From Chryseobacterium binzhouense (GTDB lineage: Bacteria > Bacteroidota > Bacteroidia > Flavobacteriales > Weeksellaceae), in NCBI RefSeq assembly GCF_007474545.1, contig NZ_VKOG01000001.1, positions 806,001 through 870,000 of the forward strand: a stretch of 64,000 bases of DNA. The letters are read 5' to 3'. How positions within the stretch are numbered: position 1 is the stretch's first letter; the number at the start of each line of letters is the position of its first letter. The notes beneath the pieces are model-generated. The model searched no databases. It had not been told where the DNA came from and saw only the letters and a program-made list of their open reading frames with translations. This document shows positions 49,068 to 54,400 of this stretch, one piece after another. The translations under genes and the position numbers were made by a program.

Positions 49068-50495
49068 ATGAATTCCTACAAAAATCCATTGGAAGAACGC
49101 TACTCCAGTGAAGAAATGTTATTTAACTTCTCACATAACAACAAATTCCAAAATTGGAGAAAGCTTTGGATTGCTCTTGCTGAAATCGAAAAAGACCTTG
49201 GTCTTGACATTACAGATGAGCAAATCGCCGAATTGAAAGCCAATGCAGAAAATATCGATTACGAAAAAGCGGCAGAATATGAGAAGAAATTCCGTCATGA
49301 TGTAATGGCTCATGTTCACGCTTATGGTGACGTAGCACCTTCTGCAAAAGGAATTATTCACTTGGGAGCAACTTCCGCATTTGTAGGAGATAATACCGAT
49401 TTAATTCAGATCCGTGACGGACTTTTAATCTTAAAGAAAAAGTTGGTGAACGTAATGAAAAATCTTTCAGATTTTGCCATTCAATATAAAGATTTACCAA
49501 CTTTAGGATTTACACACTTTCAGCCGGCTCAGTTAACGACTGTCGGAAAAAGAGCAACACTTTGGTTGCAGAGTTTGGTTCTTGATATAGAGGAACTTGA
49601 TTTCTTTTTAGAAACTCTGCGTTTCAGAGGTGTGAAGGGAACAACGGGAACAGCAGCAAGCTTCTTGGAGCTTTTTAACGGAGATTATTCTAAAGTTAAA
49701 CATTTAGATAAAGAGTTGTCTAAAAGATTTGGTTTCGAGAAAGTTTTCGGAGTTTCCGGACAGACTTACGACAGAAAAATTGATGCAAAAGTTGTGGCTT
49801 TATTGGGAAATATCGCTCAGTCGGCTCATAAATTCACCAACGATTTACGTCTTCTTCAAAATCTGAAAGAAATTGAAGAACCTTTCGAGAAAAACCAGAT
49901 CGGTTCATCGGCAATGGCTTACAAGCGTAATCCGATGAGAAGCGAAAGAATCGGAGCATTGGCAAAATATGTAATGTCTTTAACGACAAGTTCTGCAATG
50001 GTCGCTTCAACTCAGTGGTTCGAAAGAACTTTAGATGATTCTGCAAATAAGAGATTGACGATTCCTCAGGCATTTTTAGCGGTTGATGCGATTCTATTAA
50101 TCTGGAACAACGTCATGAACGGAATTGTGGTGTATCCAAACAGAATCAACAAACATATTATGGAAGAATTGCCGTTTATGGCGACAGAATACATCATTAT
50201 GGAAGAAGTGAAAGCCGGTGGTGACCGTCAGGAAATCCATGAAGTAATCAGGGTTCATTCTATGGAAGCGTCCAAAAAAGTAAAAGAAGAAGGGAAAGAA
50301 AATGACCTTATTGAAAGAATCTTAAATGATGATTCTTTAAAATTAGATAAATCAAAATTAAAAGAAGTGCTTGATCCTAAAAACTTCATCGGTTTTGCAC
50401 CCATTCAGACGGAAGAATTCATTGCCAATGAAGTTCAGCCGATTATTGATGCCAACAAAGATTTGATAGGATTGGAAGCTGATCTTAAAGTATAA
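49068..50495 (+). CDS. purB: Adenylosuccinate lyase
   Basis: A 475-residue fumarase-superfamily enzyme. The signature loop is GSSAMAYKRNPMRSER near residue 284. The catalytic His lies in HDVMAHVHAYGD, with TSAFVGDNTDL and TLGFTHFQPAQ forming the other active-site walls. It acts twice in purine synthesis (SAICAR to AICAR, adenylosuccinate to AMP). purL lies 1 kb further on, with a mobile insertion between. Confidence 0.97.
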   Translation: MNSYKNPLEERYSSEEMLFNFSHNNKFQNWRKLWIALAEIEKDLGLDITDEQIAELKANAENIDYEKAAEYEKKFRHDVMAHVHAYGDVAPSAKGIIHLGATSAFVGDNTDLIQIRDGLLILKKKLVNVMKNLSDFAIQYKDLPTLGFTHFQPAQLTTVGKRATLWLQSLVLDIEELDFFLETLRFRGVKGTTGTAASFLELFNGDYSKVKHLDKELSKRFGFEKVFGVSGQTYDRKIDAKVVALLGNIAQSAHKFTNDLRLLQNLKEIEEPFEKNQIGSSAMAYKRNPMRSERIGALAKYVMSLTTSSAMVASTQWFERTLDDSANKRLTIPQAFLAVDAILLIWNNVMNGIVVYPNRINKHIMEELPFMATEYIIMEEVKAGGDRQEIHEVIRVHSMEASKKVKEEGKENDLIERILNDDSLKLDKSKLKEVLDPKNFIGFAPIQTEEFIANEVQPIIDANKDLIGLEADLKV

Positions 50496-50552
50496 TTTAA
50501 TATGCAGTCTTTTTGGCTGCATATTTTATTTAATTTTTGACTTACGATTTAA

Positions 50553-50571
50553 TTTATTCCGTAGGAATAAA
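50553..50571 (+). repeat. REP-like palindrome 1
   Basis: TTTATTCCGTAGGAATAAA, arms around the fixed centre CCGTAGG, followed by the tail ATCTGTGTAG. Confidence 0.85.
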
Positions 50572-50603
50572 ATCTGTGTAGAAAGTTAGTTGCTGTGAGG
50601 GCG

Positions 50604-50620
50604 GCATTCCGTAGGAATGC
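50604..50620 (+). repeat. REP-like palindrome 2
   Basis: GCATTCCGTAGGAATGC, followed by TATCTTTGTA; same centre and orientation as copy 1, 33 bases upstream of the transposase gene. Confidence 0.85.
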
Positions 50621-50652
50621 TATCTTTGTAAAGATGATGAAAATAAAATTTT

Positions 50653-51126
50653 ATGCCCAACACCTATACACAAATTTACATTCAGGTTGTTTTTGCTACA
50701 AAAGGACGTGTTATTAAAATTAAATCAGAGGTACGAGATGAAATTGAGAAATATATTTGTGGAATATTTCACAATAAGAAACAAAAGGTATTAGCAATTT
50801 ATGCAAATCCTGATCATTTACATATCTTTTTCAGTTATAAAAATTTGCAGATTACAATTCCTGAATTGATAAAAACGGTTAAGATTGAGTCGACAAATTT
50901 TATAAATGAGAAAAAACTTTGTTTAGGCAAATTTTCCTGGCAGGAAGGTTACGGTGCTTTTTCTTATGCAAAGAGTCAGAAGGAAAAAGTTATCAATTAT
51001 GTTATGAATCAGGAAAAGCATCATTTAAAAAAGAGTTTTAAAGAAGAATATCTTGAAATGTTGAATGCTTTTGAAATTGAATTTAAGAACGAATATTTGT
51101 TTGAATTCTATGATGCTGGAGAATGA
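50653..51126 (+). CDS. IS200-like / REP-associated tyrosine transposase
   Basis: A 157-residue single-domain Y1 transposase. The metal-binding HUH motif is His55-Leu-His57 (NPDHLHIFFSY). The family motif SWQEGYGAFSY spans residues 95-105, and the likely catalytic Tyr is Tyr116 in INYVMNQEKHH. All key residues are present, so the enzyme could be active. Related enzymes cut single-stranded DNA next to hairpins. Seven palindromes sharing one centre surround the gene, as expected of a REP-type system. No accessory tnpB is present. Confidence 0.93.
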   Translation: MPNTYTQIYIQVVFATKGRVIKIKSEVRDEIEKYICGIFHNKKQKVLAIYANPDHLHIFFSYKNLQITIPELIKTVKIESTNFINEKKLCLGKFSWQEGYGAFSYAKSQKEKVINYVMNQEKHHLKKSFKEEYLEMLNAFEIEFKNEYLFEFYDAGE

Positions 51127-51151
51127 TTTGTAAGATGAAAAGAAAAAAATA

Positions 51152-51168
51152 GCAGTCCTACGGACTGC
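51152..51168 (-). repeat. REP-like palindrome 3
   Basis: GCAGTCCTACGGACTGC, the inverted orientation (centre CCTACGG), so its tail reads to the left on the minus strand. It starts 26 bases after the transposase gene. Confidence 0.85.
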
Positions 51169-51202
51169 CTCATCCTTACAAACGGGATTTCTACACAGAT
51201 AT

Positions 51203-51218
51203 GATTCCTACCGGAATC
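51203..51218 (-). repeat. REP-like palindrome 4
   Basis: GATTCCTACCGGAATC, inverted orientation, with the conserved tail seen as CTACACAGATAT on its left (minus-strand ATATCTGTGTAG). Confidence 0.8.
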
Positions 51219-51245
51219 AGCTTGCGGCAATCGTAGTAAAAGAAA

Positions 51246-51260
51246 CATTCCGTAGGAAGG
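51246..51260 (+). repeat. REP-like palindrome 5 (imperfect)
   Basis: CATTCCGTAGGAAGG with one outer mismatch, followed by TTATGTGTGTAGCAA, a variant of the shared tail. Confidence 0.75.
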
Positions 51261-51296
51261 TTATGTGTGTAGCAAGAAATGAATAGGATCAGATTT

Positions 51297-51313
51297 GCAG
51301 TCCGTAGGACTGT
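51297..51313 (+). repeat. REP-like palindrome 6
   Basis: GCAGTCCGTAGGACTGT, followed by TATCTGTGTAGCAAA. Confidence 0.85.
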
Positions 51314-51348
51314 TATCTGTGTAGCAAACAATAAGTATCAATGAATTT

Positions 51349-51365
51349 GCAGTCCGTAGGACTGC
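51349..51365 (+). repeat. REP-like palindrome 7
   Basis: GCAGTCCGTAGGACTGC, perfect arms, followed by TATTTAATC. The 51127-51457 spacer otherwise holds only AT-rich DNA leading to purL. Confidence 0.85.
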
Positions 51366-51457
51366 TATTTAATCAATGGTTTAATGATTTTAAATCAATG
51401 TCAATTAAATTTGACAAAAAAATAATTAAAATAAATCTAATAAATATCTGACATCTA

Positions 51458-54400
51458 ATGTCTCAAAACAAAAGAATTTTCGTAGAAAAAAGAGGAATTT
51501 TCGATGTAGAAAGTCCAAAAATTTTTGATGAAGTAAAAGCGGTTATTCCGTCCATCCAAAAAGTAAAAGTATACAACGTGTACGATATTTTCGGATTAAA
51601 TGACGGTGAATTCGAAAAGGTAGTCAACAGCACTTTCGTAGATCCGGTTACTGATATTTTAATCGAAGAAAATCCTGCACAGGGAATTTATTTCGCATTG
51701 GAATTTTTGCCGGGACAGTACGATCAGCGTGCAGATTCCGCGCAACAGTGCATCGCTTTATTGACTGGAAATGAGAAATCTAAAGTAAGAAGCGGAAAAC
51801 TGATCGAGTTCGAAGGAGTTTCCGAATCTGATTTAGCAAAAATCAAAGACCTTTTAATCAATAAAGTGGAATCTCAGGAAAAAGATTTAACCATTTTAGA
51901 TATTCCTGCGGAAGAAACGCCGTCAAAAGTGATTGTTCACGAAGGTTTTATCAGTTTTGATGATGCTCAGTTAGAGGAATTTTTTAACAATCACGGTTTT
52001 GCATTAGGTTTAGACGATTTGAAATTCATTCAGGAATATTTTAAATCTGAACAAAGAAATCCAACAGAAACTGAACTTAAAGTTTTAGACACCTACTGGA
52101 GCGACCATTGTCGTCACACAACATTTGAAACAGAGTTGTCAAATATTGAATTTGAGGGACAGTTTAAACATACATTAGAGACCATTTTCAATGATTATAT
52201 TGAGAAAAGAAAATTCTTAGGACGTGAATTGAAACCTATTTCCTTAATGGATCTGGCGACCGTTTGCGGAAGATATTTCCATAAAACAGGTCAGTTGGAG
52301 AACTTGGTGGTTTCTGACGAGATCAACGCCTGTACAATCCAGATTGAAGCGGAATACGACGGTAAAAAAGAACCTTGGTATTTATTATTCAAAAATGAAA
52401 CACACAATCACCCGACAGAAATTGAACCTTTTGGGGGTGCTTCAACTTGCTTAGGGGGTGCAATCAGAGATCCTTTGTCCGGACGTTCTTTCGTTTTCCA
52501 AGCGATGAGATTAACCGGTGCTGCAGATGTCTTGGAACCGGTTGACAAAACTTTGCCGGGTAAATTGCCTCAAAAAACAATCACAAAACAGGCTGCAAAT
52601 GGCTATTCTTCTTACGGTAACCAAATCGGTTTGGCGACTACAATGGTTTCTGAAATTTATGATGAAGGCTACAAAGCGAAAAGAATGGAAGTTGGTTTCG
52701 TTGCCGGAGCCGTTCCTGTAGACTGGGTAAGACGTGAAAAACCTGCAAATGGTGATTCCATCATTATTTTAGGAGGAGCGACTGGTCGTGACGGTGTTGG
52801 TGGAGCAAGCGGAAGTTCGAAAGAACAGGACGAAACTTCGATTCACACGATGAGTTCTGAAGTTCAGAAAGGAAATGCCGTTGAAGAGCGTAAAATCCAG
52901 AGATTATTCAGAAATCCTGAAGTGACGAGATTGATTAAAAAGTCTAATGACTTCGGAGCGGGAGGTGTTTCTGTAGCTATCGGTGAAATTGCTGATTCTT
53001 TGGAAGTTAATTTGGATGTTTTACCTTTAAAATATGAAGGTTTGAACGGAACCGAGCTTGCTATTTCTGAATCTCAGGAAAGAATGGCAGTTGTGGTTGA
53101 ACCAAAAGATAAAGAACAGTTCATCAAGTTCTGTGAAGCTGAAAATATTGTGGCTGTTGAGGTTGCAAAAGTGACAGATTCCGGAAGGATGCAGATGTTC
53201 TGGAAAGGTGATAAAATTGTTGATCTTTCGAGAGCGTTTTTAGATACGAACGGTTGTTCAAAAAGTCAGGAAGTTAAGATTACTCACTTGAATGAAGTAA
53301 AAGAAGAAACTCTTGCATTCAATGAAGAGAATTTTTTAAAAGTATTAAGCGATAAAAATGTTGCTTCTCAAAAAGGATTGCTGGAAATGTTCGATTCATC
53401 AATCGGTGCAACTACAGTTGCGATGCCTTTAGGTGGAAAATATCAGCAGACTTTGATGGAAGGAAGTGTTCAGACATTGCCGATTATCGGAGCAAAAGAC
53501 ATCGAAACCGTTTCTTTAGCGAGTTGGGGATTTGATGCCGAAATTTCTAAGCAGAATTCTTTACTGGGAGCTTCTTATGCCGTGGTTGAAAGTGTGGCGA
53601 AAATCGTTGCGATGGGTGGTGATTATAAAAATATAAGATTCAGTTTTCAGGAATATTTTGAAAAGTTAGGTCAGAATCCTGAAAAGTGGGGGAAACCTTT
53701 AGCGTCTCTTTTGGGTGCTTATGATGCTCAGATTAATTTTGGTTTAGCGGCAATTGGAGGTAAAGATTCAATGAGTGGAACGTACCAGGATTTGAATGTT
53801 CCGCCAACCTTGATTTCATTTGCTTGTGCCAATGGAGAAAAGAAAAATATCATCTCTCCGGAATTTAAACAGGCAGGTAATAAACTGTATTTCTTCAATC
53901 ATATTCCGCAGGAAAACGGACTGCCAAACTATAATAAACTGAAAGCAGTTTACGAGTTAATTTTCGAAAATATCAAAGCTGGAAAAATCGTTTCTGTGAA
54001 AACTGTAAAAGATGGTGGAGTTGCAGTTGCTTTGGCAAAGATGAGTTTTGGAAACAGATTGGGAGCTGACATAAATATTGCTGATGAAAACATTTTACTA
54101 GCTAAAAATATTGGTAGTTTAATTATAGAATCGACTGAAGAATTAAGTTCTTTTGAACTTCAATTAATTGGTGAAGTTAAAAATTCAAATATCCTAAAAA
54201 TCAGTAATTTTAGTTTTGAAATCGAAAAATTACTTGAAGCAAATGTAGTTACTTTTGAAAACCTATTTCCAACCGTTGAAAAAGAAAAAATTACGGTTAA
54301 AATTGATGAGAAATTAAACTCGATCAATCCAAGAAATATCATTATCAAGAAACACGGATTGGCGAAGCCGAGAGTTTTCGCACCTGTGTTTCCGGGAACA

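Follow-up and report, generated by a model that had tools for sequence, protein, structure and literature searches.

A complete Y1 transposase of 157 residues, encoded between purB and purL in Chryseobacterium binzhouense and surrounded by short palindromes, raises the question of whether Bacteroidota possess a counterpart of the gammaproteobacterial REP/RAYT systems, as the original prediction for this locus proposed. Analysis of the 64,000-nucleotide stretch of DNA that holds it (hereinafter the window), together with related genomes, bore this out as to a comparable transposase-hairpin system, though not one that is RAYT/REP proper. The locus is probably a REPtron-like unit, namely a domesticated low-copy HuH/Y1 TnpA with the motifs of TnpA-Y1 subclass 1.2, set among inverted doublets of its cognate hairpins.

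Both the completeness of the transposase gene and its position were confirmed: the intact open reading frame (Table 1) encodes a protein matching the Pfam Y1_Tnp model (E 2.8e-19), and NCBIfam models identify its neighbors as purB and purL. The protein displays the residues H55-L-H57, W96-Q97 and Y116-VMNQEKHH. Its best NCBIfam model is IS200, at 51.7 bits slightly under the cut-off of 55, while REP_Tyr_transpos reaches 22.1 bits, below its cut-off of 80; the nearest solved chain is 2xm3 (E 0.0064), which we take to be an ISDra2-type TnpA. The C. binzhouense assembly (G000) holds three Y1 genes and no near-identical copies of the window tnpA, since the other two are only 56% and 41% identical to it. 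Among pairs with dS of 0.05-2 (the remainder falling outside that range), the median pairwise dN/dS is 0.064 for the A-type genes at purB-purL (37 of 55 pairs), 0.051 for the A-type genes at a second site (20 of 21) and 0.108 for the B-type genes (55 of 55), these types being distinguished below. The gene is under purifying selection, and the protein is maintained.

Table 1. Coordinates of tnpA and the surrounding hairpins in the window.
Feature	Position	Strand	Remarks
Core unit H1>H2>tnpA<H2<H1	50553..51219		DNA homology to the L053 unit, 50556-51221
Hairpin H1, upstream doublet	50553..50571	+	8-bp stem, GTA loop
H1 tail ATCTGTGTAG	50572..50581	+	conserved in relatives
Hairpin H2, upstream doublet	50604..50620	+	TATCT next
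tnpA, Y1/HuH transposase, 157 aa	50653..51126	+	intact ORF; H55-L-H57, W96-Q97, Y116, Q120, H123-H124
Hairpin H2, downstream inverted doublet	51152..51168	-	
H1 tail TATCTGTGTAG	51191..51201	-	minus-strand reading
Hairpin H1, downstream inverted doublet	51202..51219	-	4-nt loop, center CCGGTAGG
Imperfect hairpin, first of tandem triplet	51244..51262	+	tail ATGTGTGTAG
Hairpin H1	51297..51313	+	tail TATCTGTGTAG at 51314-51324
Hairpin H2	51349..51365	+	tail TATTT

The palindromes had been described as seven copies sharing the center CCGTAGG and, in most cases, a common tail, with two in plus orientation upstream of the gene and two inverted and three plus copies downstream. We recovered seven hairpins in precisely this order (+ + [gene] - - + + +); CCGTAGG is the center of six of them and CCGGTAGG that of the seventh, and the tail motif GTGTAG directly follows four of the seven. 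When folded as single-stranded DNA, all seven do better than the mean of their dinucleotide shuffles (z from -2.38 to -4.81), including the one at 51244-51262, which has a mismatch in its stem (-3.6 kcal/mol). CCGTAGG occurs eight times in the window versus 1.18 expected, a count reached by 0 of 100 shuffles, and six of these eight copies are at the tnpA locus.

Across the genus, the hairpins at the A-type loci (n=20) form head-to-tail doublets of an H1 with the tail ATCTGTGTAG followed by an H2 with the tail TATCT or TATT, beyond which the sequence diverges. Of the 36 neighboring same-orientation pairs, 26 have starts 49-51 nt apart. Inverted repeats of the same family flank the gene in the window and in most of the 20 loci, with exceptions: exactly one plus doublet stands upstream in 11, an inverted doublet comes first downstream in 13, both are seen in eight, and the upstream side is rearranged in two (L084 and L091). 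The hairpin arms covary. In 55 distinct hairpins, which were taken by core and tail only, with the outer four pairs not used in selection, those four pairs are paired in 91% of cells versus a maximum of 72% in 2000 column shuffles, a comparison that cannot be read as a probability because the hairpin sequences are related. The earlier observation that the arms vary while retaining their pairing needs correcting for the hairpin at 51244-51262, which is imperfect. In a set of 88 hairpins selected by an [AT]AT[CT] tail, GT[AG]G stands at the 5' foot in a single case, and GTAG falls within the 14-nt 3' stretch in 42, a figure that is not independent because of that selection. No conserved 5' guide of the kind expected of IS200/IS605 ends, and no conserved 5' flank, was seen beside the hairpins. 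The stems of the B and A2 hairpins usually stand between GA/AA (5') and GA/GG (3'), a bracketing that could allow sheared G-A pairs.

A genome-wide count of CCGTAGG-type palindromes, which the original prediction had suggested as a check, showed that they are not restricted to the locus. The pattern TCCGTAGGA occurs 47 times in the C. binzhouense genome versus 11 for the reversed pattern; 25 of these sites extend into stems of 5 bp or longer, and all but one of these 25 avoid open frames (≥90 aa), within which 19 of the 22 sites with shorter stems are found. The genome therefore holds a dispersed, mostly extragenic hairpin family. Its 25 exact-core copies stay below the more than 100 that mark high abundance, and among the matches listed for 174 genomes no genome exceeds 24 strict motif matches, though copy counts from exact patterns are undercounts. 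Two tail types occur on the common core, namely A (ATCTGTGTAG) and B (ACTGTTAATAG): the second tnpA of this genome (L046, G000:C12:46054-46506; 56% identical) is flanked by B-type hairpins, and a different hairpin, GAACCCGAAGGGTTC, adjoins the third Y1 gene (L047, G000:C1:1212158-1212625; 41% identical). In the third Y1 type more generally (L047 and L069), the flanks display these different hairpins, GAACCCGAAGGGTTC, along with a GCCGTAGGT stretch.

Tail type and protein clade go together. In a tree comprising 49 TnpA proteins (out of 52 extracted from 54 loci; L089 and L093 have no intact ORF, and three incomplete proteins were omitted), the clades A (18 proteins), B (11), A2 (5) and A3 (2) are each monophyletic. 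A scan of 36 loci for the four tails, carried out blind to clade, found the A tail in 18 of 18 A loci, the B tail in 11 of 11, the A2 tail in five of five and the A3 tail in two of two, with no cross between tail type and clade. The match rests on this unfiltered scan because our other set of hairpins had been filtered by a tail pattern for each clade.

Tail and gene are also associated in their presence across the genus. Among the matches listed, the A pattern has 321 matches in 45 of the 174 genomes (its reversed control has 0 in every one), and it is found in all 25 genomes with an A-type tnpA (at least 75% identity, fragments included) versus 20 of the 149 others, a comparison in which shuffles and p-values overstate independence owing to relatedness among the genomes and sequences. 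For the B pattern there are 57 matches, spread over 54 genomes, and 47 have a listed tnpA of 49-60% identity no more than 200 bp away; the A2 pattern has 14 matches in 10 genomes, seven of them near a tnpA. Accordingly, repeat type varies in step with both the protein itself and its presence, as in REP/RAYT systems, save for the 20 of 149 genomes. These bear on a caveat raised from the outset, that the link would fail if the palindromes were common in genomes lacking the transposase, which applies in part: among the matches listed, seven genomes without an A-type tnpA carry at least five A matches (G026, 19; G021, 15; G108, 11; G013, 9; G073, 8; G166, 8; G154, 5). The assemblies of G166 and G021 are 73% and 90% complete, respectively; at purB-purL, G026 has another ORF and G108 a 79% identical stretch in place of the gene. 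Gene loss is plausible in G026, because several of its element sites (see below) recur in G097 or G088, two genomes that carry the gene. The B-type tnpA, as judged from its flanking sequence, looks to have stayed in position, and a genome mostly has a single exact match to the motif. For example, in L059 (genome G005) it lies between genes that we read as hydroxyacyl-CoA-dehydrogenase-like and thiolase-like; several other B loci have flanks that are similar by eye, L059 and L046 being examples of the type.

The A-type gene occupies the purB-purL site in one clade and a second site, upstream of a gene that we read as methyltransferase-like, in another. The DNA homology between the window and the second-site unit L053 spans outer H1 to outer H1 (Table 1), and in G154, which has no A-type tnpA among the matches listed, the second site holds a lone H1 with its tail. 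The purB-purL gap (50496-51457 in the window) is variable in the genus, containing the tnpA unit, a short gap or other ORFs depending on the species. tnpA lies upstream of purL in 12 of the 30 loci around this gene; in the 23 with both purB and purL in reach, seven have tnpA, six only a gap of 218-243 bp and 10 other DNA, while five of the seven without purB in reach have tnpA. The proposed comparison of empty sites thus yielded short gaps in six of 23 loci, and neither the purB-purL loci nor the compared element loci provided a clean empty site or a target signature. BLAST matches, among those listed, at G190:C1:843140-845316 point to tnpA units with internal deletions, arrayed in tandem next to the full unit.

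Besides the gene-bearing units, a four-hairpin element of the form H1>H2><H2<H1 recurs in G097, G026, G088 and G108, and the C. binzhouense assembly has relatives of it at C9:18979, C9:173196 and C1:1074858. These copies are non-autonomous and dispersed in the relatives. In an alignment of 39 copies, which come from 36 of the 39 regions retrieved with a single motif variant, the best conserved parts of the consensus are the hairpins and their tails. The outer inverted ends of the element are GAAGTTGTTTAAAGTAAAA; next to 18 A-type genes, nothing closer to them than three mismatches in 16 was found. Among four element loci compared between genomes, the element at the first is present in G026, G088, G108 and G097 and absent in G000; at the second it is present in G097, G026 and G108 and absent in G088, and both loci have messy borders, with other DNA gained or lost. 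At the third the difference is nested DNA, and for the fourth no left flank could be located in the other genomes compared; L026 and L029 had no usable orthologue among the matches listed. In L121 (G026), as compared to L118 (G097), the four-hairpin copy breaks off abruptly within the inverted H2 region (border AGATAG|CGTTCC), which resembles a cut at the tail. REPINs, as Bertels and Rainey are said to have reported in 2011, are likewise non-autonomous inverted pairs of repeat units dispersed in a genome. Unlike in REPINs, each half is here a two-hairpin doublet, giving four hairpins in all, and extra outer inverted ends are present.

How far the resemblance to REP/RAYT goes was assessed against criteria from PMC2817692 and PMC8266576. 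As in the REP/RAYT systems (class 2 REPtrons of gammaproteobacteria), a low-copy HuH/Y1 protein is encoded between inverted hairpins, the repeats are mostly extragenic, repeat and protein co-vary and the motif correlates with the gene. The likeness posited by the original prediction therefore stands as regards genomic copies, inverted flanks, arm covariation, tail type by clade and motif-gene correlation. The identity does not: the tyrosine motif is here of the class-1 form YxxNQxxHH, in contrast to the YxxNP of RAYTs; the conserved motif is 3' of the hairpin, whereas REPs have GT[AG]G at the 5' foot; the hairpins stand in direct doublets about 50 nt apart; and exact patterns recover tens of copies at most, rather than hundreds as for REPs. 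Given Y116-VMNQEKHH without Y-NP, a GT[AG]G 5' foot in one of 88 hairpins and fewer than 100 copies by exact patterns, defining features of a RAYT are lacking, and the system is not a RAYT. By the criteria of Nunvar (2010), RAYTs were found in gammaproteobacteria alone. The canonical REPs of Quentin (2018; PMC6006769) have their GT[AG]G foot at the 5' side, and a search for such REPs would presumably miss 3' tails. Among titles and abstract openings, a corpus with subscription journals largely outside its scope, we found no published report of such a TnpA-hairpin association.

The protein itself resembles TnpA-Y1 subclass 1.2, for which the same study gives the signature DH[IV]H / WQ / YIKNQKEHH and which it describes as a close IS200 relative without IS properties, with no REP listed. 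The WQ and Y---Q--HH motifs, the length of about 150 aa, the low copy number and the Bacteroidetes host all agree with this subclass, whose hosts are Bacteroidetes or Cyanobacteria, a placement made by motif rather than by the HMMs of that study; the window protein has DHLH where the subclass table has DH[IV]H, and many of its relatives have DHIH or DHVH. The difference lies in the flanking REP-like hairpins, usual here and absent from the published listing. Because the subclass was described without IS properties and without REPs, it has been left without a known substrate; with cognate hairpins assigned to it, its function can be tested directly. Here, moreover, a domesticated single-strand transposase that is not a RAYT appears to co-evolve with palindromes in the genome, and since each of four protein clades in the genus has its own tail type, with two of these types in the C. 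binzhouense genome, specificity becomes testable by hairpin swaps in vitro.

Three other accounts were weighed against the REPtron-like one, whose own weak points are the low copy number, the orphan palindromes and the want of a clean empty site. The unit could be an ordinary IS200-type insertion sequence with MITEs, still transposing selfishly, of which our hairpins would be the subterminal LE/RE hairpins. The catalytic family is indeed identical to that of IS200/IS605 elements (IS608, ISDra2), which have subterminal hairpins recognized on single-stranded DNA; moreover, the IS200 model scores best, the whole unit is found at two unrelated sites and G190 seems to hold internally deleted units in tandem (BLAST places, among the matches listed). 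However, the several near-identical copies per genome typical of IS200/IS605 (subclass 1.1) are missing, as the divergence of the other two Y1 genes attests, and the gene keeps its site across species under purifying selection; its neighbors are purB and purL rather than tnpB, and several hairpins rather than one per end stand on each side. We consider a selfish insertion sequence quite unlikely. That the hairpins are transcription terminators or RNA-stability elements lying beside tnpA by chance, with no action of TnpA on them, appears highly improbable: they are short and stable and nearly all avoid open frames, and one examined element directly follows a terminator-like hairpin, yet their conserved tail is GTGTAG and not a T run, its type tracks the TnpA clade, their orientation tends toward mirror symmetry about the gene, and no Rfam family reaches its gathering score within 50000-51900.

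The remaining account concerns the four-hairpin elements, which might derive, as MITEs, from a DDE transposon unrelated to this system, the hairpins having been captured by it, in which case their spread would be uninformative on TnpA. Their extra outer ends, GAAGTTGTTTAAAGTAAAA, are not found beside A-type genes, and among the matches listed the motif abounds in G026 and G108, neither of which has the cognate TnpA. Against this, conservation is highest in the hairpins and tails rather than at the outer ends; G097 and G088 hold both element and gene (among the matches listed), and several G026 copies share their site with one or the other of them, making gene loss possible there. We regard a DDE origin as unlikely.

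TnpA of IS200/IS605 elements acts as a dimer. On the REPtron-like reading, a TnpA dimer would bind the hairpins on a single strand (on the lagging strand or during repair), cut near the conserved 3' tail via Y116 and H55/H57, and join the ends, such that hairpin units would be copied, moved or deleted; either of the inverted halves would be actively oriented on one of the strands. We infer both this cleavage and mobilization of the hairpins by TnpA and the location of the cut, the latter because ATCT|GTGTAG holds a CT 3' of the hairpin, the dinucleotide cut by E. coli TnpAREP. Corneloup (2021) describes cleavage at CT on either side of the REP (5' or 3') and ascribes to the 5' GTAG the role of a guide.

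Beyond the genus, relatives at E ≤1e-20 are found in at least 191 of 395 Bacteroidia genomes and at least 113 of 196 genera. In 20 of 26 such loci (six were too short, and all derive from the best-scoring matches), hairpins within about 200 nt of the gene number 2.9 per locus versus 0.28 in control windows of the same loci, which are largely coding; at least two hairpins are present in 17 of the 20 and both sides have them in eight. When only non-coding DNA is counted, the class loci have 7.7 hairpins per kb near the gene versus 3.9 elsewhere, roughly twofold, while the four genus groups have 10.2, 14.5, 15.5 and 9.1 per kb within 300 nt versus 2.8, 0, 0 and 1.1 elsewhere in the loci. Many of the hairpins of distant members have a form close to hairpin-GACCTGTTTRTAGAAA, and they occur as doublets. 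In two distant gene-bearing genomes (400 and 200 kb sampled), high copy number was not seen, and a loose hairpin+TAGA motif is rarer than its reversed control. There is about an even chance, in our estimate, that these proteins represent a class-wide Bacteroidota kind of REPtron built on IS200-like subclass 1.2 transposases independently of the RAYTs, with tandem double hairpins and a 3' motif, and either ancestral to the 5'-GTAG REPs or a parallel domestication; we lowered this estimate because the enrichment in the non-coding control is only twofold outside the genus.

The strict A motif with exact core was also sought in 84,980 species genomes, which gave 101 stretches, 80 of them listed. 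Nine of the listed stretches are in a single Candidatus Poribacteria MAG (L337, L355, L363, L367, L379, L380, L381, L390 and L400) and were not counted, as they belong to a near-identical repeat, longer than 140 nt, whose palindrome has 5 bp, and none of the nine loci contains a TnpA relative; a single match in Butyrivibrio looks like chance. Chryseobacterium, Kaistella, Epilithonimonas, Halpernia or Cloacibacterium account for 67 of the 80, and the others are in two Weeksellaceae MAGs and one Bacteroidetes MAG with tandem hairpins.
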